NCBI GenBank assembly: GCA_032622095.1
Contig: CP136066.1
Location: 169,642,664-169,706,663, forward strand
DNA length: 64,000 nucleotides
DNA from: Siphonodentalium dalli
Taxonomy: Eukaryota; Mollusca; Scaphopoda; Gadilida; Siphonodentaliidae
Direction: 5' to 3'
Part shown: in pieces, positions 4,601-62,263 of the stretch
How positions within the stretch are numbered: the first letter of the stretch is position 1
Layout of the letters: every line of letters starts with the position of its first letter
Notes under the pieces: generated by a model
Database searches by the model: none
What the model was told of the DNA's origin: nothing
What the model saw: only the letters and a program-made list of their open reading frames with translations
Made by a program: the position numbers and the translations under genes

Positions 4601-4838
4601 AATGGTGAATATTGTGATGTACATTTACACCAATTGAGAACCACGATTATGTCTCTGCCAATTTGGGGATATAGAGAAACCAAACTAAAAAAGAACTAAA
4701 ATCTATGTGAAGAAGTTTCTATAGATGACAGGCTCACTAAAATCAGGCTTTGACAAGTCAGTAATAAGTATTTAATGAATGTATCGACGTACAGTATTTT
4801 TCTCCCCGGCAATGGACCGGGATTTAACCAAAAACGAC

Positions 4839-27844: not shown

Positions 27845-30800
27845 TAGTCCGCCAGCCAGTCCTCCATTCGGCCTTGTCATTCCGGAGGGCTAGGTGTGAC
27901 TTGATCCGTCAGCCAGTCCTCCATTCGGCCTTGTTATTGTCATTCCGGAGGGCTAGGTGTGACTTGATCCGTCAGCCAGTCCTCCATTCGGCCTTGTTGC
28001 TGTCATTCCGGAGAGCTAGGTGTGACTTGATCCGTCAGCCAGTCCTCCATTCGGCCTTGTTGTTGTCATTCCGGAGGGCTAGGTGTGACTTGATCCGTCA
28101 GCCAGTATCCATTCGGCCTTGTTATTGTCATTCCGGAGGGCTATGTGTGACTTGATCCGTCAGCCAGTCCTCCATTCTGCCTTGTTATTGTCATTCCGGA
28201 GGTCTAGGTGTGACTCGATCCGTCAGCCAGTCCTCCATTCGGCCTTGTTATTGTCATTCCGGAGGGATAGGTGTGACTTGATCCGTCAGCAGTCCTCCAT
28301 TCGGCCTTGTTGCTGTCATTCCGGAGGGCTAGGTGTGACTTGATCCGTCAGCAGTCCTCCATTCGGCCTTGTTATTGTCATTCCGGAGGGCTATGTGTGA
28401 CTTGATCCGTCAGCCAGTCCTCCATTCGGCCTTGTTGTTGTCATTCCGGAGGGCTAGGTGTGACTTGATCCGTCAGCCAGTATCCATTCGGCCTTGTTAT
28501 CGTCATTCCGGAGGGCTATGTGTGACTTGATCCGTCAGCCAGTCCTCCATTCTGCCTTGTTATTGTCATTCCGGAGTTCTAGGTGTGACTCGATCCGTCA
28601 GCCAGTCCTCCATTCGGCCTTGTTATTGTCATTCCGGAGGGATAGGTGTGACTTGATCCGTCAGCAGTCCTCCATTCGGCCTTCTTGCTGTCATTCCGGA
28701 GGGCTAGGTGTGACTTGATCCGTCAGCCTGTCCTCCATTCGGCATTGTTATTGTCATTCCGGAGGGCTATGTGTGAATTGATCCGTCAGCCTGTCCTCCA
28801 TTCGGCATTGTTATTGTCATTCCGGAGGGCTAGGTGTGACTCGATCCGTCAGCAGTCCTCCATTCGGCCTTGTTATTGTCATTCCGGAGGGCTATGTGTG
28901 ACTTGATCCGTCAGCCTGTCCTCCATTCGGCATTGTTATTGTCATTCCGGAGGGCTAGGTGTGACTCGATCCGTCAACCAGTCCTCCATTCGGCCTTGTT
29001 ATTGTCATTCCGGAGGGCTAGGTGTGACTTGATCGTCAGCAGTCCTCCATTGGGCCTTGTTGCTGTCATTCCGAAGGGCTAGGTGTGACTTGATCCGTCA
29101 GCCAGTCATCCATTCGGCCTTGTTATTGTCATTCCGGAGGGCTAGGTGTGACTTGATCCGTCAGCAGTCCTCCATTCGGCCTTGATGCTGTCATTCCAGA
29201 GGGCTAGGTGTGACTTGATCCGTCAGCCAGTCCTCCATTCGGCCTTGTTGTTGTCATTCCGGAGGGCTAGGTGTGACTTGATCCGTCGGCCAGTATCCAT
29301 TCGGCCTTGTTATTGTCATTCCGGAGGGCTATGTGTGACTTGATCCGTCAGCCAGTCCTCCATTCTGCCTTGTTATTGTCATTCCGGAGTTCTAGGTGTG
29401 ACTCGATCCGTCAGCCAGTCCTCCATTCGGCCTTGTTATTGTCATTCCGGAGGGATAGGTGTGACTTGATCCGTCAGCAGTCCTCCATTCGGCCTTCTTG
29501 CTGCCATTCCGGAGGGCTAGGTGTGACTTGATCCGTCAGCCTGTCCTCCATTCGGCATTGTTATTGTCATTCCGGAGGGCTATGTGTGAATTGATCCGTC
29601 AGCCTGTCCTCCATTCGGCATTGTTATTGTCATTCCGGAGGGCTAGGTGTGACTCGATCCGTCAGCAGTCCTCCATTCGGCCTTGTTATTGTCATTCCGG
29701 AGGGCTATGTGTGACTTGATCCGTCAGCCAGTCCTCCATTCGGCCTTGTTATTGTCATTCCGGAGGGCTATGTGTGAATTGGTCCGTCAGCCTGTCCTCC
29801 ATTCGGCATTGTTATTGTCATTCCGGAGGGCTAGGTGTGACTCGATCCGTCAGCCAGTCCTCCATTCGGCCTTGTTATTGTCATTCCGGAGGGATAGGTG
29901 TGACTTGATCGTCAGAAGTCCTCCATTCGGCCTTGTTGCTGTCATTCCGGAGGGCTAGGTGTGACTTGATCCGTCAGCAGTCCTCCATTCGGCCTTGATG
30001 CTGTCATTCCAGAGTGCTAGGTGTGACTCGATCCGTCAGCCAGTCCTCCATCGGCCTTGTTATTGTTATTTCAGAGGGCTAGGTGTGACTCGATCCGTCA
30101 GCCAGTCCCCCATTCGGCCTTGTTATTGTCATTCCGGAGGGCTATGTGTGACTTGATCCGTCAGCAGTCCTCCATTCGGCCTTGCTATTGTCATTCCGGA
30201 GGTCTAGGTGTGACTCGATCCGTCAGCCAGTCCTCCATTCGGCCTTGTTATTGTCATTCCGGAGGGATAGGTGTGACTTGATCCGTCAGCAGTCCTCCAT
30301 TCGGCCTTGTTATTGTCATTCCTGAGTTCTAGGTGTGACTCGATCCGTCAGCCAGTCCTCCATTCGGCCTTGTTATTGTCATTCCGGAGGGATAGGTGTG
30401 ACTTGATCCGTCAGCAGTCCTCCATTCGGCCTTCTTGCTGTCATTCCGGAGGGCTAGGTGTGACTTGATCCGTCAGCCTGTCCTCCATTCGGCATTGTTA
30501 TTGTCATTCCGGAGGGCTATGTGTGAATTGATCCGTCAGCCTGTCCTCCATTCGGCATTGTTATTGTCATTCCGGAGGGCTAGGTGTGACTCGATCCGTC
30601 AGCAGTCCTCCATTCGGCCTTGTTATTGTCATTCCGGAGGGCTATGTGTGACTTGATCCGTCAGCCAGTCCTCCATTCGGCCTTGTTATTGTCATTCCGG
30701 AGGGCTATGTGTGAATTGATCCGTCAGCCTGTCCTCCATTCGGCATTGTTATTGTCATTCCGGAGGGCTAGGTGTGACTCGATCCGTCAGCCAGTCCTCC

Positions 30801-33800
30801 ATTCGGCCTTGTTATTGTCATTCCGGAGGGCTAGGTGTGACTTGATCGTCAGCAGTCCTCCATTCGGCCTTGTTGCTGTCATTCCGAAGGGCTAGGTGTG
30901 ACTCGATCCGTCAGCCAGTCATCCATTCGGCCTTGTTATTGTCATTCCGGAGGGCTAGGTGTGACTTGATCCGTCAGCAGTCCTCCATTCGGCCTTGATG
31001 CTGTCATTCCAGAGGGCTAGGTGTGACTCGATCCGTCAGCCAGTCCTCCATCGGCCTTGTTATTGTTATTTCAGAGGGCTAGGTGTGACTCGATCCGTCA
31101 GCCAGTCCCCCATTCGGCCTTGTTATTGTCATTCCGGAGGGCTATGTGTGACTTGATCCGTCAGCAGTCCTCTATTCGGCCTTGCTATTGTCATTCCGGA
31201 GGTCTAGGTGTGACTCGATCCGTCAGCCAGTCCTCCATTCGGCCGTGTTATTGTCATTCCGGAGGGATAGGTGTGACTTGATCCGTCAGCAGTCCTCCAT
31301 TCGGAGGGCTATGTGTGAATTGATCCGTCAGCCTGTCCTCCATTCGGCATTGTTATTGTCATTCCGGAGGGCTAGGTGTGACTCGATCCGTCAGCAGTCC
31401 TCCATTCGGCCTTGTTATTGTCATTCCGGAGGGCTATGTGTGACTTGATCCGTCAGCCTGTCCTCCATTCGGCATTGTTATTGTCATTCCGGAGGGCTAG
31501 GTGTGACTCGATCCGTCAACCAGTCCTCCATTCGGCCTTGTTATTGTCATTCCGGAGGGCTAGGTGTGACTTGATCTTCAGCAGTCCTCCATTGGGCCTT
31601 GTTGCTGTCATTCCGAAGGGCTAGGTGTGACTTGATCCGTCAGCCAGTCATCCATTCGGCCTTGTTATTGTCATTCCGGAGGGCTAGGTGTGACTTGATC
31701 CGTCAGCAGTCCTCCATTCGGCCTTGATGCTGTCATTCCAGAGGGCTAGGTGTGACTTGATCCGTCAGCCAGTCCTCCATTCGGCCTTGTTATTGTCATT
31801 CCGGAGGGCTATGTGTGACTTGATCCGTCAGCCAGTCCTCCATTCTGCCTTGTTATTGTCATTCCGGAGTTCTAGGTGTGACTCGATCCGTCAGCCAGTC
31901 CTCCATTCGGCCTTGTTATTGTCATTCCGGAGGGATAGGTGTGACTTGATCCGTCAGCAGTCCTCCATTCGGCCTTCTTGCTGCCATTCCGGAGGGCTAG
32001 GTGTGACTTGATCCGTCAGTCTGTCCTCCATTCGGCATTGTTATTGTCATTCCGGAGGGCTAGGTGTGACTCGATCCGTCAGCAGTCCTCCATTCGGCCT
32101 TGTTATTGTCATTCCGGAGGGCTATGTGTGACTTGATCCGTCAGCCAGTCCTCCATTCGGCCTTGTTATTGTCATTCCGGAGGGCTATGTGTGAATTGGT
32201 CCGTCAGCCTGTCCTCCATTCGGCATTGTTATTGTCATTCCGGAGGGCTAGGTGTGACTCGATCCGTCAGCCAGTCCTCCATTCGGCCTTGTTATTGTCA
32301 TTCCGGAGGGATAGGTGTGACTTGATCGTCAGAAGTCCTCCATTCGGCCTTGTTGCTGTCATTCCGGAGGGCTAGGTGTGACTTGATCCGTCAGCAGTCC
32401 TCCATTCGGCCTTGATGCTGTCATTCCAGAGTGCTAGGTGTGACTCGATCCGTCAGCCAGTCCTCCATCGGCCTTGTTATTGTTATTTCAGAGGGCTAGG
32501 TGTGACTCGATCCGTCAGCCAGTCCCCCATTCGGCCTTGTTATTGTCATTCCGGAGGGCTATGTGTGACTTGATCCGTCAGCAGTCCTCCATTCGGCCTT
32601 GCTATTGTCATTCCGGAGGTCTAGGTGTGAGTCGATCCGTCAGCCAGTCCTCCATTCGGCCTTGTTATTGTCATTCCGGAGGGATAGGTGTGACTTGATC
32701 CGTCAGCAGTCCTCCATTCGGCCTTGTTATTGTCATTCCTGAGTTCTAGGTGTGACTCGATCCGTCAGCCAGTCCTCCATTCGGCCTTGTTATTGTCATT
32801 CCGGAGGGATAGGTGTGACTTGATCCGTCAGCAGTCCTCCATTCGGCCTTCTTGCTGTCATTCCGGAGGGCTAGGTGTGACTTGATCCGTCAGCCTGTCC
32901 TCCATTCGGCATTGTTATTGTCATTCCGGAGGGCTATGTGTGAATTGATCCGTCAGCCTGTCCTCCATTCGGCATTGTTATTGTCATTCCGGAGGGCTAG
33001 GTGTGACTCGATCCGTCAGCAGTCCTCCATTCGGCCTTGTTATTGTCATTCCGGAGGGCTATGTGTGACTTGATCCGTCAGCCAGTCCTCCATTCGGCCT
33101 TGTTATTGTCATTCCGGAGGGCTATGTGTGAATTGATCCGTCAGCCTGTCCTCCATTCGGCATTGTTATTGTCATTCCGGAGGGCTAGGTGTGACTCGAT
33201 CCGTCAGCCAGTCCTCCATTCGGCCTTGTTATTGTCATTCCGGAGGGCTAGGTGTGACTTGATCGTCAGCAGTCCTCCATTCGGCCTTGTTGCTGTCATT
33301 CCGAAGGGCTAGGTGTGACTCGATCCGTCAGCCAGTCATCCATTCGGCCTTGTTATTGTCATTCCGGAGGGCTAGGTGTGACTTGATCCGTCAGCAGTCC
33401 TCCATTCGGCCTTGATGCTGTCATTCCAGAGGGCTAGGTGTGACTCGATCCGTCAGCCAGTCCTCCATCGGCCTTGTTATTGTTATTTCAGAGGGCTAGG
33501 TGTGACTCGATCCGTCAGCCAGTCCCCCATTCGGCCTTGTTATTGTCATTCCGGAGCGCTATGTGTGACTTGATCCGTCAGCAGTCCTCTATTCGGCCTT
33601 GCTATTGTCATTCCGGAGGTCTAGGTGTGACTCGATCCGTCAGCCAGTCCTCCATTCGGCCGTGTTATTGTCATTCCGGAGGGATAGGTGTGACTTGATC
33701 CGTCAGCAGTCCTCCATTCGGCCTTGTTGCTGTCATTCAGGAGGGCTAGGTGTGACTTGATCCGTCAGCAGTCCTCCATTCTGCCTTGATGCTGTCATTC

Positions 33801-35185
33801 CAGAGGGCTAGGTGTGACTCGATCCGTCAGCCAGTCCTCCATCGGCCTTGTTATTGTTATTTCAGAGGGCTAGGTGTGACTCGATCCGTCAGCCAGTCCC
33901 CCATTCGGCCTTGTTATTGTCATTCCGGAGGGCTATGTGTGACTTGATCCGTCAGCAGTCCTCCATTCGGCCTTGCTATTGTCATTCCGGAGGTCTAGGT
34001 GTGACTCGATCCGCCAGCCAGTCCTCCATTCGGCCTTGTTATTGTCATTCCGGAGGGATAGGTGTGACTTGATCCGTCAGCAGTCCTCCATTCGGCCTTG
34101 TTGCTGTCATTCCGGAGGGCTAGGTGTGACTTGATCCGTCAGCAGTCCTCCATTCTGCCTTGTTATTGTCATTCCGGAGTTCTAGGTGTGACTCGATCCG
34201 TCAGCCAGTCCTCCATTCGGCTTGTTATTGTCATTCCGGAGGGATAGGTGTGACTTGATCCGTCAGCAGTCCTCCATTCGGCCTTCTTGCTGTCATTCCG
34301 GAGGGCTAGATGTGACTTGGTCCGTCAGCCTGTCCTCCATTCGGCATTGTTATTGTCATTCCGGAGGGCTATGTGTGAATTGATCCGTCAGCCTGTCCTC
34401 CATTCGGCATTGTTATTGTCATTCCGGAGGGCTAGGTGTGACTCGATCCGTCAGCAGTCCTCCATTCTGCCTTGTTATTGTCATTCCGGAGGGCTATGTG
34501 TGACTTGATCCGTCAGCCAGTCCTCCATTCGGCCTTGTTATTGTCATTCCGGAGGGCTATGTGTGAATTGATCCGTCAGCCTGTCCTCCATTCGGCATTG
34601 TTATTGTCATTCCGGAGGGCTAGGTGTGACTCGATCCGTCAGCCAGTCCTCCATTCGGCCTTGTTATTGTCATTCCGGAGGGCTAGGTGTGACTTGATCG
34701 TCAGCAGTCCCCCATTCGGCCTTGTTGCTGTCATTCCGAAGGGCTAGGTGTGACTCGATCCGTCAGCCAGTCATCCATTCGGCCTTGTTATTGTCATTCC
34801 GGAGGGCTAGGTGTGACTTGATCCGTCAGCAGTCCTCCATTCGGCCTTGATGCTGTCATTCCAGAGGGCTAGGTGTGACTCGATCCGTCAGCCAGTCCTC
34901 CATCGGCCTTGTTATTGTTATTTCAGAGGGCTAGGTGTGACTCGATCCGTCAGCCAGTCCCCCATTCGGCCTTGTTATTGTCATTCCGGAGGGCAATGTG
35001 TGACTTGATCCGTCAGCAGTCCTCCATTCGGCCTTGCTATTGTCATTCCTGAGGGCTATGTGTGACTTGATCCGTCAGCAGTCCTCCATTCGGCATTGTC
35101 ATTCCGGAGGGCTATGTGTGACTCGATCCGTCAGCCAGTCCTCCTTTCGGCCTTGTTATTGTCATTCCGGAGGGCAATGTGTGAT
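27845..35185. repeat. 63-bp minisatellite, about 115-120 copies, with higher-order structure
   Basis: The unit is gtcagccagtcctccattcg, then gccttgttattgtcattccg, then gagggctaggtgtgacttga, then tcc (63 bp, or 62 or 61 bp when cagccag is cagcag or when gatccgtc is gatcgtc). Because 63 is a multiple of 3, runs of full units stay open and give many short spurious frames, and each 62-bp unit shifts the frame. Blocks recur: starts at 30057 and 32474, 31057 and 33474, 29683 and 32100 are each 2417 bp apart, so about 2.4 kb has been duplicated as one higher-order unit. The array lies in intron 4. Confidence 0.97.
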
Positions 35186-36752: not shown

Positions 36753-37015
36753 TTAACCCTTCCATGGCTGGAGCTTCCTGAAATTTTGCGAAAACCCTGT
36801 GCCAATACATTCTCTTATATATGCGAGTCTCCCATAGGGAGCCTAGCATATACAAGATAATGCATTGGCCTAACAATATTTACCTTGACCATGTCAGCCA
36901 GTGCATTCTCTTATATATGCGAGGCTTCCTGTGGGAGACTCGCGTATATAAGGGAATGCTCTCACACAGGATATTTAATGCTGTGACAGCACAACTCCCA
37001 TCACGAAAGTGTTAA
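36753..37015. mobile_element. piggyBac-like MITE, family A (copy 1), with two nested hairpins
   Basis: Bounded by TTAA at 36753-36756 and 37012-37015. The left end is CCCTTCCATGGCTGGAGC, and the diverged right end is caactcccatcacgaaagtg. Inside are two consecutive copies of the 67-bp hairpin with loop 'cccatagggagc' or 'ctgtgggag', separated by 'caatatttaccttgacc'. Confidence 0.75.
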
Positions 37016-41453: not shown

Positions 41454-41560
41454 TGGGAACCTTTTGTAAACGTAACAACGAATAACATAACAGGAAATGT
41501 GACGTTTGAGGGATACTGTATCGAATGGCTCAAAGAGCTATCAAGGACGCTGAACTTCAG
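41454..41560 (+). CDS. iGluR/IR exon 7 (ligand-binding S1, first part)
   Basis: Acceptor tctattttcag ends at 41453 and donor gtgtgt starts at 41561. The exon is 107 bp, phase 0 in and phase 2 out. The peptide W-E-P-F-V-N-V-T-T then F-E-G-Y-C-I-E-W-L-K-E-L-S-R matches the classical iGluR pattern PPFV, then FEGYC(I/V)DLL, although the first proline is Trp-Glu here. Three sequons (N-V-T, N-I-T, N-V-T) lie close together. Confidence 0.95.
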
Positions 41561-41589: not shown

Positions 41590-41656
41590 AAACAGGAAAG
41601 CTGGATTTTGAGGGAAACTGTATCGAATGGCTCAGCGATCAACCAAGGACAGAGGT
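41590..41656 (+). pseudogene. Decayed partial copy of exon 7
   Basis: Only 30 bp after exon 7, a segment reads T-G-K-L-D-F-E-G-N-C-I-E-W-L-S and then P-R-T-E before gtaaca. At DNA level ttttgagggaaactgtatcg and aatggctca nearly match exon 7. There is no acceptor in front of it, so it is a duplicated fragment. Confidence 0.75.
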
Positions 41657-43784: not shown

Positions 43785-43878
43785 CTATACTCTTGTTAAG
43801 TCGGTTGACGACCAATGGGGGATGCATGATAATAGTACCGGCAGATGGACTGGTATGGTGGGCATGCTGCAGAGAAGG
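43785..43878 (+). CDS. iGluR/IR exon 8 (ligand-binding S1)
   Basis: Acceptor tgtttctttcgcag ends at 43784 and donor gtaagt starts at 43879. The exon is 94 bp, phase 2 in and phase 0 out. The peptide Y-T-L-V-K-S-V-D-D-Q-W-G then G-R-W-T-G-M-V-G-M-L-Q-R-R is the iGluR S1 stretch 'Y.i.lv.D..yG....G.W.GMVGeL'. Confidence 0.94.
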
Positions 43879-43992: not shown

Positions 43993-44490
43993 CCATTGTA
44001 AAGTGGTTTGGATATCATTTGAAATATCCCATGTTTACGTACAACCAAGGGAATGGGGCTTTTTATTTATGTACATTTTATACATATGTATACTCTAGGG
44101 TTCAGATTGTTAAGCCTGTCATGACTGGAACTTCCTGAAATATTGCGAAAACCCTGTGCCAATGCATTCTCTTTATACATGCGAGTCGACCATAGGGAGC
44201 CTCGCATATATAAGCGAATGCACTCGATACAAGATCAAGGTAAATATTATTAGGCCAATGCATACTCTTATATATGCGAGGCGCCCTACGGGTGACTCGC
44301 ATATATAAGAGAATACATTGGCACAGGGTTTTCGCAAAATTTCAGGAAGCTCCAGTCATGAAAGGGTTAACCATTTGAAACCTAGAGTATACATGTTCAT
44401 ATGTATAAAATGTACATAAAACGCCCCATTCCCTTTGTTGTACGTAAACATGGGATATTTCATATGATATCCAAACCACCTTACAATAAT
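43993..44490. mobile_element. Large palindrome of about 500 bp with a family A element at its centre
   Basis: The outer left arm 43993-44105 (ggtttggatatcatttgaaa, tatcccatgtttacgtacaa) is the reverse complement of 44372-44490. Between the arms sits the TTAA-bounded family A MITE (44110-44370), itself a palindrome. Confidence 0.85.
44110..44370. mobile_element. piggyBac-like MITE, family A (copy 2)
   Basis: TTAA at 44110-44113 and 44367-44370. The left end gcctgtcatgactggaac and right end ctccagtcatgaaaggg are inverted. It carries two nested 67-bp hairpins (first arms at 44159 and 44252) and the arms 'cctgaaatattgcgaaaacc' and 'ggttttcgcaaaatttcagg'. Confidence 0.85.
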
Positions 44491-46605: not shown

Positions 46606-46918
46606 GAAGTTGATTTGGTCGTTGCATCACTCACGATCGACGCCGGCAGAGAGGATGTGATGGACTTCACATATCCATTCTTCTATGAAGATTACGGCGC
46701 CATTATTGCGAGGGTGGACCCCGAATCCCGAAAATGGCGCTCGCTTATCGCCCCATTTAGCTGGCAAGTGATACTCACTACCATCGCTATTGTTCCTGTG
46801 ACGTCAGCACTTCTCTTCCTGTTTGAGAAGTACAGCTATCTCCGTGTTATTCCGAACCAATCTGTGATGACGTATACGGAGTGTTTGTGGTATGTGTATG
46901 GAGCGCAATTAATGCAAG
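46606..46918 (+). CDS. iGluR/IR exon 9 (end of S1, M1, start of pore loop)
   Basis: Acceptor ttcttgtttttcag ends at 46605 and donor gtgaga starts at 46919. The exon is 313 bp, phase 0 in and phase 1 out. It starts E-V-D-L-V-V-A-S-L-T-I-D-A-G-R-E, where T and R occupy the positions of the conserved ligand-binding Thr and Arg. Next is D-F-T-Y-P-F-F, then M1 (about V-I-L-T-T-I-A-I-V-P-V-T-S-A-L-L-F-L-F), and W-Y-V-Y-G-A-Q-L-M-Q, the pore helix. By alignment on the Q-G pair, the Q/R-site position is Met. Confidence 0.96.
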
Positions 46919-47761
46919 GTGAGATGCGTCGTCGTTAGAAAACTACTGATGCTGGTGGGGCAAAGTGATGCTATTTAGAAAAATGTACCGTTATTTTGTT
47001 CTAAAGTTGTCATTGCTGAATTAGCTATGGTCTTGGTGGTATACAGGCCGAGGTTATTGAGCAAATTTTTTTTTTAAATCGTCGATGCATTTTTGGCAAA
47101 TCCAAATGGAGATATCTGGGTTATATGATTGCGAAAGTTGTAAATTCTTAAATCATAATTATTTAATCATGGAGAAATTATAATTTTGCTTTTCTGGTTG
47201 TATTGTGTAAAATGACAGTGCTAATTTCAAGATATGTCATTTGGTGGTTGTGCGGAATATTGCACTAATGTCTCCAGGTTCCCTTGCCAGAGACGTGTTG
47301 TGTTTTTCTTCGTTAAACTGTCTAAACTATGTGGACACATAATTACTTATTATGAAAAGTCAATTAGTTTGATTAGCATTATATTTGAGTCTAAACAATA
47401 CAATTTTTTAGTATCTAATTTTTTGTACTAAAATCGGGTGCATGTCACAAAAAAGTTTAGTTTTTATTCAGTGCGTGTGTTTATTCTGATCCATTTTGGC
47501 ACACGTCATCGTGTATGACGTCATTCTAGATTGCGATTCACCACAACGTTTACTGTGATATGCGTTATCTAATTTCGCTGAAATTATATTCGCTATCATA
47601 TTCCCATCTTTGTAGATATCCTAATTCCGGAAAAGAAATCTCAACAGAAACCGTTTACTAGGCGTGTATTTAACTACGATGAAGCAAATTTCACAGATCT
47701 AGATAAGTCAATCTTAGAACAAGACTGGAAACAAACCTTTTCAAATACCCCCATCAGTGAA

Positions 47762-50113
47762 ATGACCAACGTACTAACAACTTTCTTACAAGATCAGATC
47801 AATATTTTTGTCCCAAGTAAAATTGTGCGTTGTATGAAAGATGAACCAGCATGGTTAAATTCTGGAATAAAAAAACATATCAAACAACGAAAGCGCTTGT
47901 ATGAAAAAGCTAAAGTTCGTAATACCATCAACGCATGGACAAACTATAGGAAAAAACGAAACGAAGTAATCTCCCTTATAAGAAAATCAAAATCTGACCA
48001 CATAGTGCACATGCAAGACATCCTGAATAATCCAGAAACACCCTCATCTGCCTGGTGGAAAACCTTTAATAAACTCTCAGAAAAAAACAGCAATAGAGCT
48101 ATTCCGTACTTGTCGTGGAATAACAGCACACATACATCCAACTATGACAAAGCAGAAGCTTTTAATGACTATTTCTGTAGTGTTTCATCTATAGATGACT
48201 CAAATGCCACAATACCAGAATACACCCCATTGCAATCTATTCCAGAACTAAATGAAATATTAATCTCTGAATCGGATATAATAGAAACCTTGAAAAATCT
48301 TGTTCCTGATAAATCTTCCGGTTACGATGAGATAAGTCCGCGCATACTAAAAAAATGTCCTAGCCTGCATCATCCATTGAAAATAATGTTTAAAACATTC
48401 ATGGAAAACTCTTTCTTCCCCGATGAATGGAAACGTGCAAACGTTGTTCCAATGTTTAAAAAAGGAGACCCAACAGACCCAGGAAACTACAGACCCATAT
48501 CCCTATTAAGTTGTATTGGTAAAGTATACGAGAAATGCATAGCCAAACATCTACTCACATTTCTTACCAAAAATAGTTTACTGTGCAAACACCAAGCTGG
48601 ATTCCTCCCCGGGCAGTCAACATCACACCAATTATGCGAAATTTATCACGAAATTAGTAAAAGTTTGGATGAAGGCCAGGATGTCAGAGTCTTATTCTTC
48701 GATATAAGCAAAGCATTCGACAAAGTTTGGCACCGTGGTTTAGTTTATAAATTAAAAAGAATGGGTATCACAGGTAATCTTCTCAGATGGATTGAATCAT
48801 ATCTAACAAACCGCGAGCAAAGAGTAGTTTTAGGCTCAGAATCTTCTTCCTGTGGAGGGGTTAAAGCTGGTGTGCCCCAAGGATCCGTCCTTGGGCCGAT
48901 TTTATTTTTAACCTACATTAACGACATTGTTAAAGGAATTAAAAGTGACATTAGACTATTTGCTGACGATACGTCCATATTTCTGCCTATTAAAGACCCG
49001 ATACAAAGTGCCAAAATATTGCAAAAAGACATAAACACACTGGAAGCATGGTCGAAGAGATGGCTAGTAAAATTCAATGCCAGTAAATCAGAATCTATGT
49101 GCATATCACGTAAACAAAACCCTTTGAATCATCCAAACTTATATATGAACAATGTCCCATTGAACACAGTATCAAACCACAAACACATTGGTGTCGTTTT
49201 TGAAAACAATTGCTCATGGAAGGCCCATATTGCGTCTATATCTAAACTTGCATGGTATCGAATATCTATGTTACAAAAACAAAAATACGTTCTAAATAGA
49301 GAAACCCTAGAAAAATGTTATTTCACTCTTGTAAGACCAATCATAGAATACGCAAACGTTATCTGGGACAATTGCACAATAGCAGAATCTGACAAGTTGG
49401 AAGATATACAACTAGAAGCTGCGCGTATTGTAACAGGATGTACCAGATCCACGAGTAATAATAACCTTATAATTGAAGCAGGTTGGGAGACTCTAAAAAA
49501 GAGACGTGAAAATTCAAAACTTTATTTATATCACAAAATGATCTATAATTCGGCCCCGGAGTATCTACAAAACTTAGTGCCCCCACTTGTATCCGAGGTA
49601 TCGAAAATTAATACCCGTAACTCAAAAAACTTTCGGCTACCCCAATTTAACGCCAATTCACACGACCGGTCATTCATATTAAATACAGCAGCCCTCTGGA
49701 ATTCACTGCCGATGAGCACACGCGACATAGTGAATTACGACGAATTTAGAACAACAATAAACACTAGTCATAAAAAGAAGAATTCACGCTTCAAATATTG
49801 TTACACAAGAAAAGCACAAGTAATCCACACACGTCTTAGAAACTATTGTAGTGACCTAAACGCGCATAAATACCAAAATTATATCTCTGTCACTGATCGC
49901 TGTGTTTGTGGCCAAATAGAAGATAGCTACCACTACATATTCCAATGTCGGCGTTACCGTCCACATAGGCAAATTCTTCTTGGAAAGATCCCAGACGCAA
50001 TAGTTCCCTCAGTTTATACTTTCCTCAATGGCGATGATACAATGAGTCTACAAACGAATCTAACTATTTTTGAAGAATTCCAAAAATTTATTATCCACAC
50101 ACAACGATTTTAG
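47762..50113 (+). CDS. Reverse transcriptase ORF2 (EN-less, C-terminal part)
   Basis: A 783-codon intact frame from ATG 47762, which continues open upstream to 47582. It encodes the RNA-directed DNA polymerase of a non-LTR element, which copies element RNA at a nicked target. RT motifs include F-K-K-G-D near residue 238, N-Y-R-P-I-S-L-L-S, catalytic D in F-D-I-S-K-A-F-D-K-V-W at residue 314, G-V-P-Q-G-S-V-L-G-P, and F-A-D-D at 400-403 (the usual Y/F-A-D-D). A C-terminal cysteine/histidine cluster begins C-V-C-G at residue 714 and continues H-Y-I-F-Q-C, a probable zinc-binding tail. No frameshift or stop interrupts it, so the insertion is recent. Without an endonuclease it is unlikely to be autonomous. 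Confidence 0.92.
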   Translation: MTNVLTTFLQDQINIFVPSKIVRCMKDEPAWLNSGIKKHIKQRKRLYEKAKVRNTINAWTNYRKKRNEVISLIRKSKSDHIVHMQDILNNPETPSSAWWKTFNKLSEKNSNRAIPYLSWNNSTHTSNYDKAEAFNDYFCSVSSIDDSNATIPEYTPLQSIPELNEILISESDIIETLKNLVPDKSSGYDEISPRILKKCPSLHHPLKIMFKTFMENSFFPDEWKRANVVPMFKKGDPTDPGNYRPISLLSCIGKVYEKCIAKHLLTFLTKNSLLCKHQAGFLPGQSTSHQLCEIYHEISKSLDEGQDVRVLFFDISKAFDKVWHRGLVYKLKRMGITGNLLRWIESYLTNREQRVVLGSESSSCGGVKAGVPQGSVLGPILFLTYINDIVKGIKSDIRLFADDTSIFLPIKDPIQSAKILQKDINTLEAWSKRWLVKFNASKSESMCISRKQNPLNHPNLYMNNVPLNTVSNHKHIGVVFENNCSWKAHIASISKLAWYRISMLQKQKYVLNRETLEKCYFTLVRPIIEYANVIWDNCTIAESDKLEDIQLEAARIVTGCTRSTSNNNLIIEAGWETLKKRRENSKLYLYHKMIYNSAPEYLQNLVPPLVSEVSKINTRNSKNFRLPQFNANSHDRSFILNTAALWNSLPMSTRDIVNYDEFRTTINTSHKKKNSRFKYCYTRKAQVIHTRLRNYCSDLNAHKYQNYISVTDRCVCGQIEDSYHYIFQCRRYRPHRQILLGKIPDAIVPSVYTFLNGDDTMSLQTNLTIFEEFQKFIIHTQRF

Positions 50114-51504: not shown

Positions 51505-51722
51505 GTGGTAATAAGGAACCAGTCTCGCAAAGTGGGAGAACAATGCTAACGTTCATATGGATTTACTGCATTATAATGACGGCGCTATATAGCGGTAGCT
51601 TGGTGGCTAGTCTAACGGTGCCGAAAGTTGAAACACCAATAGATTTACTCCAAGATTTAATCAAACAAGACGAGTACAAGTGGGGGACACTCAACGGCAC
51701 GATATACGTGGATATGTTGAAG
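51505..51722 (+). CDS. iGluR/IR exon 10 (pore loop end, M3, start of S2)
   Basis: Acceptor ctaattctctccttag ends at 51504 and donor gtgagc starts at 51723. The exon is 218 bp, phase 1 in and phase 0 out. It reads G-N-K-E-P then S-G-R, then M3 with I-M-T-A-L-Y-S-G-S-L-V-A-S-L-T-V-P-K. The usual gate motif SYTANLAAFLT is altered to L-Y-S-G-S-L-V-A-S-L-T. S2 starts with K-W-G-T-L-N-G-T-I-Y, the phosphate-loop-like site contacting the ligand. The string up to V-D-M-L-K joins exon 11. Confidence 0.95.
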
Positions 51723-51770
51723 GTGAGCTGTGTACATGGGTGTTGTGGGCGTACGACACGATGCGTATAC

Positions 51771-52490
51771 GTTATTGTGGTGGTGGACGGTAACATGTTG
51801 TGACATCTATTGACGGCTTGGAGTTTATGTTATTTGCGTATCGGTTGAACAAAGGCTACAAGCCTTCAATGTCACACCACCTTACCGTCAATCCACCAGA
51901 ATAACATATATGTTCTGTCGACAGTTCTTGTCATTCACAGCAATTTGACTGTTATTCCGAAGAATGATCAACACAAACTGTCAAAATATCCTATTGCTCC
52001 CTCCATAACGTTGTTCAACGTAAATGACGTCATGAAAAAATCAGGCCAGTGAGAGAAGATGAAACGACCGGTTGTCTCGGCTCCAGATGTAAACATCGGA
52101 TATGTTGAGCCGCTATCTGACCTATCACAGACGATGTTTCGTACTTGATGTGGAAGATCATAAGTTATTGTGGTGGAATGATGGTAACATGGAGTGACAT
52201 TTACGGCTTTGAGTTCATGTTCAATGAGTCACGAATCGTCGATGTTGAACATAGGCTCAAAGCCGTCAATGTCACATCGTGTTACCATCAATCCACCACC
52301 ATAACATATATGTTCTGCCGACAGTCCTGGTCATTCATAGCAATTTGACATTTATTCGGAATGAATGATCAGCACAGAATGTCAAAATCTCCTATTGCTC
52401 TCTCCATAACGTTGTTCAACGTAAATGACGTCATAAAAACAGGCCATTGACAGACAATGAGAAACGGTTGTCTCGGTTCCAGACGTAACC
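51771..52490. repeat. Direct duplication of about 340 bp, each copy with a hairpin
   Basis: 51771-52112 and 52161-52490 are copies of one another (shared strings: ttattgtggtgg, acatatatgttctg, ctccataacgttgttcaacg, taaatgacgtcat). Each begins with a self-complementary stretch of about 135 bp (gttattgtggtgg against ccaccaccataac in copy 2). The first copy starts about 50 bp after exon 10. Confidence 0.85.
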
Positions 52491-52839
52491 AGGCTCATGC
52501 AGAGTTCAGTCCCCTACACAGGACTTACAGCTGCCCGCACCTACACGCGTAATGTGAAGGAATGTCACATTAATTAATTAATTTATTTGAAACATTTGTA
52601 AGTTGCAATTCACTCAGCATTATTCTGAGAAACTGAAGTGTCCATATTCATTTGAAATTTGTCGAGATCAAGACAGAATGAATTGTAACTGACAAAACAC
52701 TTCAATAAAAAATGTTAGATTTAATTCGAAAATACACATGCCGGCAGCGGTCAGATATAGCGTAGCGATGGGACTGAACTCTGTTTTGCAGCTTGGACGT
52801 AAACATTGGATATATTGCGCGGCTTTCTGGCCTATATAA

Positions 52840-53253
52840 GGGTACGTTCATACACTGGCAAGTTTGCACGGCATTGTTTGCAAGCATTTTCTCATAGAAA
52901 ACCCTGTAGCGCCAGAATATAAACGGAAACATGCATATGAAATGCATCTCTACCACACCTAACTACATGAGAAGAAAAAAATGTGTTGTTCCACTAGTAG
53001 CGACGCTATCGATATTTGTCTGTAAATATCAAGCAATTATCTCGCACGAATCAATCATAAAGGTATTTTAATGCAATGTGTTAGTAGCACCGTTACATGT
53101 GGAACTTCCGAAGTTTTACTCCTTACGCCGTTGGCTTTGGTAAATATGCATCTTATATGAACGTGTCCGTTCATATTCTGGCACCAAAGTGTTTTCTATG
53201 AGACAATGGCTGCAAAACATGCCGTGCAAACTTGCCAGTGTATGAACGTGCCC
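52840..53253. mobile_element. Harbinger-like MITE, 414 bp (copy H2)
   Basis: Flanked by TAA at 52837-52839 and 53254-53256. The ends gggtacgttcatacactggc and gccagtgtatgaacgtgccc are near-perfect inverted repeats, and the next arms (aagtttgcacggcat and 'tctcatagaaaac') are also paired. Confidence 0.82.
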
Positions 53254-54370
53254 TAACAGATGCTTACTTAAGGATGAGCACACGTCGATATGATGAAGGT
53301 AAGCTGTCGCCCAGTACTTCATTGCTATTTGACTGTGCTTACGATCACAACAATAACCTGAATTGCTGATTTCGGGTATCGTTACCTCATGATCTGCTCT
53401 ATACCCACAATTAAATGGTCAGTTAAGGTTAATTTGCACAGTTATACCCGATTGTGTGATTTTCAGATGTTATGATACCCCGAAATCGCCATGGCCAAAG
53501 TACCCGACTTAGAGAGTATTTGCTAGACAGGCTCTTGCCTGCAAACAATCACACTGACAAAGGCAATCTGGACTTCTCGACCTATGACCTCTGCGGACAA
53601 GCTCTTTGGTGCAATTAGAACTCATTTTTCGCGGATGATTATTTCCTGATCTGGAAGAACTGTGTCACCACTCTATAGCCGACCTTCCGCATAAATAGTC
53701 CGATTACGTGCAGTTTTATTTGACGAGTTATTTCGATACAATAATTATGTATGGCTCGTTTTCTTTGATCACCAAATACCCGGAAACAGGGGCCAACCAT
53801 CCTATTTTAATGCCATTGATAGCAGCCATTTACGGTGTATGTTATGACTCAACAAGTGCATATCCGCCTGATATCGTACCAATTGTGTCACCTCGCAAAA
53901 TTGTACTATTGGACGTGTCTACAATGATAAATTTAGGTCATGCTGTAATTTCATATAGATATTTTATGGACTATTCTATATCAGTGTTGTAAAACAACAT
54001 TTTTATATTGCTTAATTCGATGTTAAATGTAAATGTTTTCGTACCCACGAACCGACGGAATATAACTAATTCAAATTGGCGCGCCTGTACTTGACCCAGT
54101 CACCAAGCTAAAAATAACGTGATATAGTTCGAACCAATCATGGCGTTGTATTAAAGCCGAGTCTGAAACGTTGACGGAATCTGACGAGGTTTGTCGAATG
54201 TGAAAAAGAGTCAAAAGACAGTCCCGGAAATTGTCGAACACCTTTCCGGAAGTCTATATTTGACAATGTTGGTTTGCCATTCGCACTCCGAATTGTTTGC
54301 GTTCGGCAGGGAAATAAAAAAACAATTGCTGCCAAAGTTACTTTTTCGCCGTGTTATGGCTATTTCTCAC
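53254..54370. other. Intron 10, unannotated part
   Basis: A 94-codon frame at 53708-53992 has no ATG context, splice sites or domain that I recognise. I see nothing firm. Confidence 0.4.
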
Positions 54371-54463
54371 TTTAAAATATATATATGAAGATATGATTCA
54401 TGTAAATTATGTTATTCCAATCGGAAATAAATGTAGGATCCAATCAGGAAATGTTTCTTACAG

Positions 54464-54584
54464 AATTCTGAGGCGTCAGATGACGGCAGCCTATTTAATA
54501 AAGTATTGCAGGGCATTGATATATTTAAAGAAAGTAACAGTGGCTTTCTTAGCGGCGAAGAGGCACACATGCGTAAAGTGGCAG
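54464..54584 (+). pseudogene. Exon 11 copy A (most diverged, acceptor kept)
   Basis: It keeps the acceptor ttcttacag and an open frame for N-S-E-A-S-D-D, V-L-Q-G-I-D-I-F-K-E-S-N and H-M-R-K-V-A-D. It then runs into non-exon sequence and a stop, having lost the second half of the exon and any clear donor. Confidence 0.8.
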
Positions 54585-55048
54585 ACAGATATTCTCGTAC
54601 AATTTTTAGGAAAATGTACCAAATAAAATGCTACATTATATGCATACTTGTCCAAGAAATTTACTAATTTGATAGTCAGCGGGTGTCTTTAGTTGTCGAC
54701 CTGTATTGACATATTTTTTACCCGATGTGCGCCAAATGTTATTAAATCCACTATCTATGCAATTAATTTGATTACGTCGTTCCACGGAAATTCGTTACCT
54801 AATTTTTGGCATAATTCATAAACTAAATTTATATTAAATTATTAAAATTGATTTTATGATTACCTGTGACCGGTTTGCAGAAAATATCTTCTACTCAAAT
54901 AAATAATTTTTCTATTTATTATCGATACTAGATCGTTGTTGTTACCGGGAATTTATTGAAATTGGCGTGCATATTCCCTTTAATATATATGATTTATATT
55001 ATTCCATTCGGAAATAATTCAGCATCAATAAGGAAATGTTTCTTACAA

Positions 55049-55181
55049 TATTCTGAGGCGTCAGGTGTCAGCCTATTTCATAAAGTATGGCAGGGCATTG
55101 ATCAATTTAAAGAAAGTGACAGTGACATTCTTAGCGGCGACAACGACGCACACATTCATGCTGTGTAAAGTGGCAAGCGAG
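55049..55181 (+). pseudogene. Exon 11 copy B (acceptor lost, truncated)
   Basis: The acceptor is changed from acag to acaa. The frame S-E-A-S-G-V-S-L-F-H-K-V-W-Q-G-I-D ends at a TAA after an insertion (cattcatgctgtgtaaag). The second half of the exon is absent. Confidence 0.85.
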
Positions 55182-55652
55182 ATGTTCTTGTACAGTTTTC
55201 AGGAAAATGTGTACCAAATAAAATGTTACATTATATGCTTACTTATATAGTCCCAGAAATTGATTTGTTTTATTTTATAGTCAGCGGTTGTCTTGTGTTG
55301 ACGACCTGTATCGACATATTTTTTACCCGATGTGCGCCAATTGTTCTTCAATCCAATATCAATTTAATTAATTTGATTACGTCGTTCACGGAAATTCGTA
55401 ACTTAGTTTCTGGTATAATTCATAAACTAAATTTATGTTAAATTGTTAAAATTCATTTTATGATAACTTGTAACCAGTTTACAGAAAATATCTTCAACTC
55501 AAATTTATTATTTTTCTATTTATTATCGATATTATATCGTTGATGTTACCGGGAATTTATTGAAATTGGCGTGCAGATTCCCTTTAATATATATGATTTA
55601 TATTATTCCATTCGGAAATAATTCAGCATCAATAAGGAAATGTTTCTTACAT

Positions 55653-55782
55653 AATTCTGAGGCGTCAGGTGTCAGCCTATTTCATAAAGTATGGCAGGGC
55701 ATTGACCAATTTAAAGAAAGTGACAGTGACATTCTTAGCGGCGACATCGACGCACACATGCATGCGTAAAGTGGCAAGCGAG
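55653..55782 (+). pseudogene. Exon 11 copy C (acceptor lost, truncated)
   Basis: The acceptor is changed to acat. The frame reads as in copy B and stops at TAA after D-A-H-M-H-A. Confidence 0.85.
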
Positions 55783-56253
55783 ATGTTCTTGTACAGTTTT
55801 CAGGAAAATGTGTACCAAATAAAATGTTACATTATATGCTTACTTATATAGTCCCAGAAATTGATTTGTTTTATTTTATAGTCAGCGGTTGTCTTGTGTT
55901 GACGACCTGTATAGACATAGTTATTACCCGATGTGCGCCAATTGTTGTTCAATCCACTATCAATTTAATTAATTTGATTACGTCGTTCACGGAAATACGT
56001 AACTTAGTTTCTGGCATAATTCATAAACTAAATTTATGTTAAATTATTAAAATTGATTTTATGATAACTTGTAACCAGTTTACAGAAAATATCTTCAACT
56101 CCAATTTATTATTTTTCTATTTATTATCGATATTATATCGTTGTTGTTACCGGGAATTTATTGAAATTGGCGTGCAGATTCCCTTTAATATATATGATTT
56201 ATATTATTCCATTCGGAAATAATTCAGCATCAATAAGGAAATGTTTCTTACAT

Positions 56254-56383
56254 AATTCTGAGGCGTCAGGTGTCAGCCTATTTCATAAAGTATGGCAGGG
56301 CATTGATCAATTTAAAGAAAGTGACAGTGAAATTCTTAGCGGCGACATCGACGCACACATGCATGCGTAAAGTGGCAAGCGAG
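56254..56383 (+). pseudogene. Exon 11 copy D (acceptor lost, truncated)
   Basis: Nearly identical to copy C, with the same acat acceptor loss and the same stop. It stands about 600 bp before the functional exon. Confidence 0.85.
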
Positions 56384-56852
56384 ATGTTCTTGTACAGTTT
56401 TCAGGAAAATGTGTACCAAATAAAATGTTACATTATATGCTTGCTTATATAGTCCCAGAAATTGATTTGTTTTATTTTATAGTCAGCGGTTGTCTTGTGT
56501 TGACGATCCGTATCGACATATTTTTTACCCGATGTGCGCCAATTGTTGTTCAATCCACTATGTAATTAATTTGATTACGTCGTTCACGGAAATTCGTAAC
56601 TTAGTTTCTGGCATAATTCATAAACTAAATTTATATTAAATTATTAAAATTGATTTTGTGATAACTTGTAACCAGTTTACAGACAATATTTTCAACTCAA
56701 ATTTATTATTTTTCTATTTATTATCGATATTATATCGTTGTTGTTACCGGGAATTTATTGAAATTGGCGTGCAGTGTCCCTTTATTATATATGATTTATG
56801 TCGTTCCATTCGGAAATAAATTCAGCATCTAATCTGGAAATGTCTCTTACAG

Positions 56853-57127
56853 AATTCCGAGGCGTCAGGCGACAACCTATTTTATAAAGTTTGGCAGGGC
56901 ATTGATAAATTTAAAGAAAGTGACAGTAGCATTCTTAGCGGCGACAACGACGCGCACATGCGTAAGGTGGCAAGCGAGAAATACGCATACCTGATCGAGT
57001 ATACAGCCTACGACATGATCAAAACATCGGAATGTGATATAGTCAAATTCCATGATAAACTGAGCAATCACCCCTATGGAGTTGGACTTCAGAACCAGTC
57101 AGCTTATCTGGACAAATTTTCCGACAG
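56853..57127 (+). CDS. iGluR/IR exon 11 (ligand-binding S2)
   Basis: Acceptor tgtctcttacag ends at 56852 and donor gtatgt starts at 57128. The exon is 275 bp, phase 0 in and phase 2 out. It contains V-W-Q-G-I-D-K-F, R-K-V-A-S-E-K-Y-A-Y-L-I-E-Y-T (E aligns with the conserved glutamate that contacts the ligand amino group), S-E-C-D (cysteine of the S2 disulphide) and H-P-Y-G-V-G-L-Q-N-Q-S-A-Y. It is the only complete copy in the tandem array upstream. A family A MITE begins 11 bp after the exon. Confidence 0.95.
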
Positions 57128-57138
57128 GTATGTATCAG

Positions 57139-57353
57139 TTAACCAATCCATGACTGGAACTTCCTGAAACAGGGAGCCTCGCATATATTAGAGAATACAT
57201 TGGCCTAACAGTATTTACATTGACCCGGTAAGCCAATGCAGTCCCTTATATATGCGAGGCTCCCTATGGAGACTGAAAGAGACTCGCATATATAAAAGTA
57301 TGCACACGCCATGTAATGCTGTATCAGCGCAGTTCCCGACATGGAAAGGTTAA
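57139..57353. mobile_element. piggyBac-like MITE, family A (copy 3), at exon 11 donor
   Basis: TTAA at 57139-57142 and at 57350-57353. The left end is CCAATCCATGACTGGAAC and the right end is gttcccgacatggaaagg. The left arm of the first inner hairpin is deleted and the second hairpin (57232-57303) is kept. The element starts at base 12 of intron 11. Confidence 0.8.
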
Positions 57354-58595
57354 ATGGCCTTCGTTAGAGGTTATCATTTAGAAATAACAGTTACCACATT
57401 ATGAAAATGTCCCCAAGAATATACTAATAGTATAGTATAATGACAGAATGAATTCGATAGTATCTACAAAACACACTTTGTGTGAGCCGAGCGTTTGTTT
57501 ATATACAGCGCGTAAATAGTGAGCGATAAGCAAAACAATTAACACCGTGGTGATTGTTTAGGAGAGTGGTTCACCAACAATCAGTTTATTTCTCATAAAC
57601 CTATACATACATAGGTATGGAGATAATAACAATTTAAATATATACAATATGTACATAAACATGTGAGCTTCCGGTTGACAAAAGTTGTATACATGGATTA
57701 TATTACATAACCTTCATCGTTACATAGATGTATAATACTATAACATGTATATGCATATTGTAAATATATATAAACATATACAACTAAATATATTTATTGT
57801 ATATGCCTACATATACATATTTATAATTATTTATCAATAACTATGTGTATGCGTATATCGGTACTGTTCTTGCATAAATTTTGACATTGCTTGTTCGACT
57901 TATTGTCTAGCTGATTTATTCGGTCATTTCTCGATTTACAATCTTAATAAATTCGCACAACTTGCGGAGATGTGTTACATTGTCGTCGTTGAGTAAATCA
58001 CTCATCAATATTGTATTAGGGCGTCGGCCAGTTAACATTGGTAACAATCTGCGCCGGACGTTACTCATTCAACGCCGAAATTATGAGAGGCGAAGATAAG
58101 CGAGCGCTATACCGATATATTGTAAACAAATTTGTGGCATTTCTAACCAAAGTTCATTTGTGGGGTCTCCCCGGTGTTGTGTGCTTTGCGTTATCGTATG
58201 CACGTTACGTACTGTTTGTTTACATAACATGACCTTTATTTACATAACACAGAGTACTAACATGACAATAACATGCAATTTACGCGATATATTTATGATT
58301 GTTATAAGAACAAGGTTTGTCTATATATAGTACATTATTGTTTCTGTTTATGGCGGTTTTAACGGATGTGACTATTTTAACAGCAATACCCACCGCCGAC
58401 GTTTATCGTGTCTGTAAAGACATAGGCTGGAGATCAAGGGCCGTCAATATATATATAAGACTTTCTACTAATACTATTCGTCAGGATATAGCGGAGGATC
58501 GTGGCCAATCGTAGATCAAATATAGTTTTGTTGATAAACACCGCATAACACCAAATGGCTACGACATGAGTAACGGGCCTCATTTAATGCTGACT
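57354..58595. other. Intron 11, AT-rich part
   Basis: Contains many 'tatatacat' strings around 57590-57850 and no recognised exon. Confidence 0.4.
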
Positions 58596-58599
58596 TTAG

Positions 58600-61500
58600 T
58601 ATGGCACGCGTTTTGTGTCTCGTCGACAAGATACATTCACATAGCAAATTTCAAGTCGATAGCTGCACCCGTTTCCGAGATCTCGTCTGCGCATGCGCGA
58701 AGCGGGCGCCGCACGGGCTCGCCAATACGACAACGTCGACCGCCTGGTCAAACTACAAACAAGTACCAAGTTTCGTCCCGATCGGTCGAGAATCGTAGAT
58801 TTGTATAAATGACAGACAAACAGACAAACAAACAGACAGACAGAGGTCTTCAAAATATATATGAGACTAGCCGATGAGCCCGACGTTGTCCGGGCTATTC
58901 AAAAACCAAATTTCAAGTCGATATCTCTACCCAGCCCGACGTTGTCCGGGCTATTCAAAAACCAAATTTCAAGTCGATAGCTCTACCCGTTTCCGAGATC
59001 TGGTCTGCGCATGCGCGAAGCTGGCGTCGCACGGGCTCGGGACCCGACAAAATTCGTATCCGTGGCAAGATACATTCACATACCAAATTTCAAGTCGATA
59101 GCTCCACCCGTTTCCGAGATCTCGTCTGCGCATGCGCGAAGTTGGCGTCGCACGGGCTCGGCGACCCGATAAAATTCGTATCCGGGGCAAGATACATTCA
59201 CATAGCAAATTTCAAGGGCAAGATACATTCACATACCAAATTTCAAGTCGATAGCTCCACCCGTTTCCGAGATCTCGTCTGCGCATGCGCGAAGCTGGCG
59301 TCGCACGGGCTCGGCGACCCGATAAAATTCGTATCCGGTGCAAGATACATTCACATAGCAAATTTCAAGTCGATAGCTCTACCAGTTTCCGAGAGCTGGC
59401 ATCGCACGGACTCGGCGACCCGATAAAATTCGTATCCGGGGCAAGATACATTCACATACCAAATTTCAAGTCGATAACTCCACCCGTTTCCGAGATCTCG
59501 TCTGCGCATGAGCGAAGCTGGCGTCGCACTGGCTCGGCCACCCGATAAAATTCGTATCCGGGGCAAGGTACATTCACATAGCAAATTTCAAGTCGATAGC
59601 TCTACCCGTTTCCGAGAGCTGGCATCGCACGGACTCGGCGATCCGATAAAATTCGTATCCGGGGCAAGATACATTCACATACCAAATTTCAAGTCGATAG
59701 CTCCACCCGTTTCCGAGATCTCGTTTGCGCATGCGCGAAGCTGGCGTCGCACGGGCTCGGCGACCCGATAAAATTCGTATCCGGGGCAAGATACATTCAC
59801 ATAGCAAATATCAAGGGCAGGATACATTCACATACCAAATTTCAAGTCGATAGCTCCACCCGTTTCCGAGATCTCGTCTGCGCATGCGCGAAGCTGGCGC
59901 CGCACGGGCTCGGCGATCCGATAAAATTCGTATCCGGGGCAAGATACATTCACACAGCAAATTTCAAGTCGATAGCTCCACACGTTTCCGAGATCTCGTC
60001 TGCGCATGCGCGAAGCGGGCGCCGCACGGGCTCACCAATGCGACAACGTCGACCGCCTGGTCAAATTACACACACGTACCAAGTTTCGTCCCGATCGGTC
60101 GAGAATCGTAGATTTGTATAAATGACAGACAAACAGACAAACAAACAGACAAACAGACAGACAGAGGTCTTCAAAATATATATGAGACTCGCCGATGAGC
60201 CCGACTTTGTCCGGGCTATTCAAAAACCAAATGTCAAGTCGATAGCTCTACCCAGCCCGACGTTGTCCGGGCTATTCAAAAACCAAATTTCAAGTCGATA
60301 GCTCTACCCGTTTCCGAGATCTGGTCTGCGCATGCGCGAAGCTGGCGTCGCACGGGCTCGGCGACCCGATAAAATTCGTATCCGTGGCAAGATACATTCA
60401 CATACCAAATTTCAAGTCGATAGCTCCACCCGTTTCCGAGATCTCGTCTGCGCATGCGCGAAGCTGGCGTCGCACGGGCTCGGCGACCCGATAAAATTCG
60501 TATCCGGGGCAAGGTACATTCACATAGCAAATTTCAAGTCGATAGCTCTACCCGTTTCCGAGAGCTGGCATCGCACGGACTCGGCGACCCGATAAAATTC
60601 GTATCCGGGGCAAGATACATTCACATACCAAATTTCAAGTCGATAGCTCCACCCGTTTCCGAGATCTCGTTTGCGCATGCGCGAAGCTGGCGTCGCACGG
60701 GCTCGGCGACTTGATAAAATTCGTATCCGGGGCAAGATACATTCACATAGCAAATTTCAAGGGCAAGATACATTCACATACCAAATTTCAAGTCGATAGC
60801 TCCACCCGTTTCCGAGATCTCGTCTGCGCATGCGCGAAGCTGGCGTCGCACGGGCTCGGCGACCCGATAAAATTCGTATCCGGGGCAAGATACATTCACA
60901 TACCAAATTTCAAGTCGATAGCTCCACACGTTTCCGAGATCTCGTCTGCGCATGCGCGAAGCTGGCGTCGCACGGGCTCGGCGACCCGATAAAATTCGTA
61001 TCCGGGGCAAGGTATATTCACGTAGCAAATTTCAAGTCGATAGCTCCACCCGTTTCCGAGATCTCGTCTGCGCATGCGCGAAGCGGGCGCCGCACGGGCT
61101 CGACAATACGACAACGTCGACCGCCTGGTCAAACTACACACACGTACCAAGTTTCGTCCCGATCGGTCGAGAATCGTAGATTTGTATAAATGACAGACAA
61201 ACAGACAAACAAACAGACAGACAGAGGTCTTCAAAATATATATGAGACTAGCCGATGAGCCCGACGTTGTCCGGGCTATTCAAAAACCAAATGTCATGTC
61301 GATAGCTTTACCCAGCCCGACGTTGTCCGGGCTATTTAAAAACCAAATTTCAAGTCGATAGCTCTACCCGTTTCCGAGATCTGGTCTGCGCATGCGCGAA
61401 GCTAGCGTCGCACGGACTCGGGACCCGATAAAATTCGTATCCGTGGCAAGATACATTCACATACCAAATTTCAAGTCGATAGCTCCACCCGTTTCCGATA

Positions 61501-61818: not shown

Positions 61819-61888
61819 ACAGAAATAACAGAATGATGGAAATAATAAAATCAGGATTTAGGATTACCTATTATATGAAAGGGCGAAA
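61819..61888 (+). pseudogene. Decayed partial copy of the start of exon 12
   Basis: 'gatggaaataataaaatcag' and 'ggattacctattatatgaaa' match the first 50 bp of exon 12, with a small insertion. It lies about 120 bp upstream of the true exon. There is no usable acceptor and the frame is disturbed. Confidence 0.75.
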
Positions 61889-61950
61889 CAAAAAATTAAT
61901 CAAATATTTGACATACTTAATTGAAATATATATATATATATCTCCTTCAG

Positions 61951-62263
61951 GATCATGGAAATAACAGAATCAGGATTACCTATTATATGGAAGCGTGAAT
62001 GGTGGCCGAAAGAGATATTCTGCGACGATATGGCAAAATCAGAAGTTAAAATCGGGCTCCCCGATGTGCAAAGCGCGTTCTATACAGCCATCATAGGGAT
62101 TTTCCTCGGATGTATCTGTTTACTTATAGAAAGAGTCTGGTATAAATTTCGACGAAAAGACGATTCGAAAACCAGGTCGGTTGGGCACAGTCAACAGTTT
62201 CCCGCGGAACACAGCGAACAGTTTGACACCACAAACAGCCGACAGTTACCAGACTATATGTAG
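61951..62263 (+). CDS. iGluR/IR exon 12 (end of S2, M4, C-terminal tail, stop)
   Basis: Acceptor atatctccttcag ends at 61950, phase 2 in. It reads I-M-E-I-T-E-S-G then K-R-E-W-W-P-K, the usual 'G....W.' helix end of S2. Next is the linker and M4 (about A-F-Y-T-A-I-I-G-I-F-L-G-C-I-C-L-L-I), followed by basic residues K-F-R-R-K. The tail (H-S-Q-Q-F-P-A-E-H-S-E-Q-F) ends at TAG 62261-62263. From about 62185 the DNA behind the tail has the 24-bp periodicity of the minisatellite that follows. Confidence 0.93.

Follow-up and report, generated by a model that had tools for sequence, protein, structure and literature searches.

A tandem array of truncated exon copies upstream of the S2 exon of a glutamate receptor gene in Siphonodentalium dalli

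The 64,000-nucleotide stretch of Siphonodentalium dalli DNA analysed here (the window) contains an ionotropic glutamate receptor gene, identified by S1 and S2 ligand-binding domains and channel domains in one open frame (Table 1). Six exons, from S1 to the stop, join into a single frame of 439 codons, with AG at all six acceptors and GT at all five donors. The 439-residue product matches Pfam families PF10613 (97 bits) and PF00060 (80.1 bits), and the best PDB matches of its residues 2-403 are delta-1 receptors (E = 3e-54). Given the open frame and the match to solved receptors, the exon copies described below are not needed for the gene to encode this part of the receptor. A search with the S2 exon alone gave weak similarity to delta and kainate receptors (best E = 6e-5), and at E = 0.1 no Pfam family was hit. 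The Glu in its YAYLIE motif is, we assume, a ligand-contacting residue. Exon numbers 10, 11 and 12, and the intron numbers that go with them, are those of an earlier note on this DNA.

Table 1. Receptor exons, array units and other partial exon copies, in window coordinates.
Feature	Position	Strand	Remarks
S1 exon	41454..41560	+	in joined open frame
60-bp partial copy of S1 exon (41489-41548)	41591..41650	+	82% identical; 30 bp after S1 exon donor
Second S1 exon	43785..43878	+	in joined open frame
Exon: end of S1, M1, part of pore region	46606..46918	+	in joined open frame
Exon: M3, start of S2	51505..51722	+	donor AAG/gtgagc
Unit A	54407..54993 (587 bp)	+	acceptor flank, then partial exon copy and spacer; acceptor AG intact; the most divergent of units A-D
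Copy A in unit A	54464..54667	+	partial exon; frame open into spacer to TAA 54665-54667; no donor-like site on a par with the three scored real donors
Unit B	54994..55597 (604 bp)	+	partial exon copy without acceptor AG; frame shifted to TAA
Unit C	55598..56198 (601 bp)	+	like B: without acceptor AG; 4-bp insertion; TAA
Unit D	56199..56795 (597 bp)	+	like C; spacer is the present intron directly 5' of the functional exon
Partial fifth copy	56796..56979	+	acceptor flank and first 127 bp of functional exon
Functional S2 exon	56853..57127	+	91 codons + 2 nt; acceptor cag 56850-56852; donor CAG/gtatgt
Unduplicated 3' part of S2 exon	56980..57127	+	with donor and Glu of YAYLIE
Decayed partial copy of last exon's 5' part (61948-61999)	61829..61887	+	first ~50 bp; ~119 bp upstream
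Last exon found: end of S2, M4, C-terminal tail, stop	61951..62263	+	in joined open frame

Self-BLAST of positions 53501-58000 revealed a five-member tandem array with shifts of 587, 1191, 1792 and 2389 bp, and E-values from 0.0 to 1.85e-45 exclude chance as its source. Four upstream units, spanning 54407-56795, precede the functional S2 exon; in each, the final part of the intron and roughly 127 bp from the start of the exon are followed by a spacer of about 400 bp. If X denotes the intron end, the acceptor region and the ~127 bp of exon, and S the spacer, the order of blocks is X-S-X-S-X-S-X-S-X, the last X continuing into the intact exon. The self-alignment and the unit boundaries bear out the earlier note, which had described a five-copy array with four units of about 600 bp ahead of the S2 exon. 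The match is not confined to intron sequence, since the 5' part of the exon lies inside the repeat. The earlier note had let the array begin at 54371; clear homology begins at 54407, with a weak, AT-rich alignment reaching back to about 54391.

Similarity to the exon breaks off at nearly the same point in all four copies. The last 148 bp of the exon, including the donor, have no copy within the 64-kb window (next best match 15 bp, E = 0.84), and exon sequence is repeated nearby, in the same gene and orientation, as in a tandem exon duplication, for the first 127 bp only. Truncation had been thought peculiar to copies B-D but is common to all four, copy A included. Because the copies end at about the same place, truncation would be a property of the original event and not of later decay; the copies were probably truncated from the start.

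The acceptor AG is kept in one of the four copies, A, where the sequence reads tttcttacag against tctcttacag at the real exon; by eye, this T-rich acceptor looks equally good. As the earlier note had it, the frame of copy A is open: counted from 54467 it has 66 codons before the TAA at 54665, or 67 if the AAT at 54464 is included. The acceptor said to have been lost in the same way from B-D is indeed without AG in all three, but the letters differ: C and D carry one change and B a neighbouring two-base variant. The stop in B-D is likewise real, a TAA reached after a 4-bp insertion in the copied exon. We scored all 145 GT sites in 54470-56850 as donors, using an approximate matrix of donor frequencies. 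The best scored 5.71, whereas three of the gene's five internal donors scored 9.3, 10.3 and 10.1 on the same matrix. With no GT site in the array above 5.7 and real donors at 9.3-10.3, it is unlikely that the copies serve as internal cassettes.

B-D are 96.3-97.3% identical to one another and 88.0-88.5% identical to A (gaps not counted), and the difference between A and the functional exon is about 15%. Between A and B-D, the exon part differs by 11.4% and the spacer by 10.7-11.3% (A-B, 14/123 and 44/403; A-C, 14/123 and 43/403; A-D, 14/123 and 45/399). This about equal divergence is as expected if neither part is constrained between A and B-D. The A-B differences fall 6, 6 and 2 on the three codon positions, with no excess at the third.

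We also assigned changes in the exon part to lineages in an unrooted comparison of the copies, covering 16 sites. Silent changes made up 5 of 7 in the functional exon vs. 0 of 9 in copy A (Fisher p = 0.0048). This comparison leaves out seven variable exon-part sites (two three-way, two on the B-D branch and three within B-D), gapped columns and 11 variable flank sites. Each of the nine changes in copy A is a replacement; this is in keeping with neutrality, and diversifying selection would also be compatible with so few sites. One of them removes a Trp that aligns with Trp in the delta and kainate receptors shown. Of three indels between copy A and the functional exon in the exon part, two are multiples of three, which is a point against a neutral reading. 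On balance, the pattern of substitutions makes the copies look neutral rather than like working spare parts.

Copy A deserves separate consideration, since it keeps both an open frame and a T-rich acceptor resembling the real one, and its spacer contains an AATAAA. Copy A could act as an alternative last exon or as a decoy acceptor, some transcripts joining 51722 to 54464 and terminating in the spacer. The outcome would be a receptor that stops short of M4 and of the Glu presumed to contact the ligand, or slower removal of the intron. We consider this unlikely: the AATAAA, at about 54622, precedes the stop at 54665; coding constraint is not seen in copy A; and the open frame is unremarkable, because in simulations with substitutions only, over the first 42 codons, 57-72% of 20,000 neutral copies stayed open at each of three divergences. 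A more elaborate version, in which copy A tunes the amount of full-length receptor in either of these roles and the rest of the array represents its expanded, disabled neighbours, strikes us as very unlikely.

The copies might otherwise be decayed remnants of S2 exons that were once mutually exclusive and worked, comparable in principle to the flip/flop cassettes of AMPA receptors. Those cassettes are likewise tandem exon copies in the S2 part of an ionotropic glutamate receptor, at a position which we take to lie just after the stretch encoded by this S2 exon. Both of them, flip and flop, are functional exons of full length, whereas the copies here are truncated. Mutually exclusive exons are similar in length and phase and have both acceptor and donor; all four copies in this array end inside the exon and are without its 3' half or its donor. 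Nor was purifying selection on each copy, a further mark of such clusters, seen when copy A and the B-D group were compared at few sites, and the exon part is conserved no more than the spacer between them. A reverse-complement partner of unit D, which also bears on this reading, was found nowhere above the highest of 60 shuffles: the best scores were 27 in intron 10 (51723-54406; highest shuffle 34), 22 in the first 1.5 kb of intron 11 (57128-58600; highest shuffle 33) and 31 within the unit itself, where the highest shuffle was also 31. A past as working exons is thus highly improbable. Truncation, the want of a comparable donor and the absence of coding constraint also speak against the earlier suggestion that the copies are raw material for alternative cassettes, in a process failed or under way.

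The relationships among the copies agree with another part of the earlier note, that an already broken copy spread recently. The missing AG, the 4-bp insertion and the stop are common to B-D, which are only ~3-4% apart vs. ~12% from A, from which many indels also separate them. The shared AG loss and insertion indicate that a unit would have been broken once and then multiplied; B-D look like a recent expansion of that unit. In the last 62 positions of unit A, from 54932, there is a single difference from the B-D consensus, as if the recent expansion had included the tail of the unit A spacer. Divergence as low as that among B-D could be allelic in a highly heterozygous animal, and the array might then be an assembly artefact in which allelic copies of one unit were strung together. 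This is hardly probable, as the distance of A from B-D, with its indels, and from the functional exon would be too great for alleles, and the units differ in length. Under such an artefact, only the number of B-type units would be in doubt.

Judged from sequence comparison, the array is very probably a neutral intronic repeat that arose by incomplete duplication of an exon, followed by unequal exchange. The process would have begun with an early rearrangement that placed a truncated X ahead of the real exon, through a tandem duplication whose outermost S was lost later or through insertion of X alone. The array starts and ends with an exon-bearing block, and in the region left of A no spacer rises above shuffles: this region scored 24 against the D spacer (shuffle mean 22.9, reached by 69 of 200 shuffles) and 22 against the A spacer (mean 22.7, reached by 122 of 200). 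Both routes fit this arrangement. Once in place, the X blocks could have provided the homology for unequal exchange, by which units were added. Unit A would have aged, and another unit, its acceptor and frame already lost, would later have multiplied to give B-D. The receptor transcript would still be spliced from the donor at 51722 to the acceptor at 56850-56852, the array being removed with the intron.

Tandem exon duplication is common, and unannotated intronic exon copies are numerous in human genes (PMC9013439). The present case is similar in that a neighbouring intron in the gene holds copies of one of its exons; it differs in that the copies, four units with a spacer, cover the 5' part of the exon only and have no comparable donor. 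In Drosophila Gr39a, as far as the available text of PMC2204066 goes, degenerate copies in a tandem exon array, pseudo-exons and exon loss have been described. Both are receptor genes with tandem exon copies, some of them degenerate, but in Gr39a, by the same partial text, each of the large exons is a whole one that is spliced to small exons used in common, whereas the copies here are truncated and give no sign of use. The available portion of PMC9741552 makes no mention of degenerate, pseudo or partial copies, of a glutamate receptor or of GRIA, and the word 'lost' occurs there twice, neither time for decayed copies of this kind. A small literature search, mostly of titles, gave no description of a truncated, array-forming exon duplication, and no match on tandem mutually exclusive exons and ionotropic glutamate receptors, on truncated exons and unequal crossing, or on invertebrate flip/flop; for partial exon duplication the matches were clinical papers. 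Partial-exon duplication is a known kind of event, of which the array is a new instance. It offers a worked example of failure in tandem exon duplication: where the breakpoint falls within the exon, the copies come without a donor and turn into part of an intronic repeat. It also calls for caution in annotation, since similarity alone could lead to copy A being called an alternative exon. Unless copy A turns out to be spliced, the wider importance is small.

Partial copies are not confined to the S2 exon: two further exons of the gene have a short one nearby. We compared each of the six exons with 3 kb on either side (less at the window end), giving 12 tests with 200 shuffles each. Three of the six had a local partial copy scoring above all 200 shuffles. 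Upstream of the S2 exon the match scored 178 (highest shuffle 30), downstream of the S1 exon 65 (highest shuffle 30) and upstream of the last exon 49 (highest shuffle 32). The last of these matches covers 61833-61887, and 61829-61887 with a score of 52 when the acceptor bases are included. The S1 copy lies in an open frame running through the donor. Scores for the last exon downstream (32) and the S1 exon upstream (24) were reached by 1 and 10 of 200 shuffles, and those of the remaining seven tests by 38 to 198. An enrichment of partial copies at this gene's exons was considered and dropped, because short local repeats are common in the window. Among 752 windows of 110 bp, taken after removal of satellite blocks, 108 had a near match, 48 of them in the array, leaving 60 of 704 outside it.

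Repeats of other kinds are present as well. Intron sequence is duplicated in tandem at 51767-52092 and 52160-52488 (81% identical, shift 393 bp), beginning 45 bp after the donor at 51722. A 63-bp satellite occupies more than 7 kb (27848-35184), and further long tandem arrays lie at 4834-6383 and at about 58.6-61.8 kb; the presence of several such arrays in the window suggests a genome prone to tandem amplification. Within an intron, a stop-to-stop open frame of 843 codons (47582-50110) matches the reverse transcriptase family PF00078 (123.5 bits), as in a LINE-like element. A MITE-like element, about 100 bp long and self-similar in inverted orientation, occurs in both orientations at 57171-57274, 36836-36940 and 44190-44287, with shorter matches near 15.7, 19.1, 19.3 and 21.3 kb.
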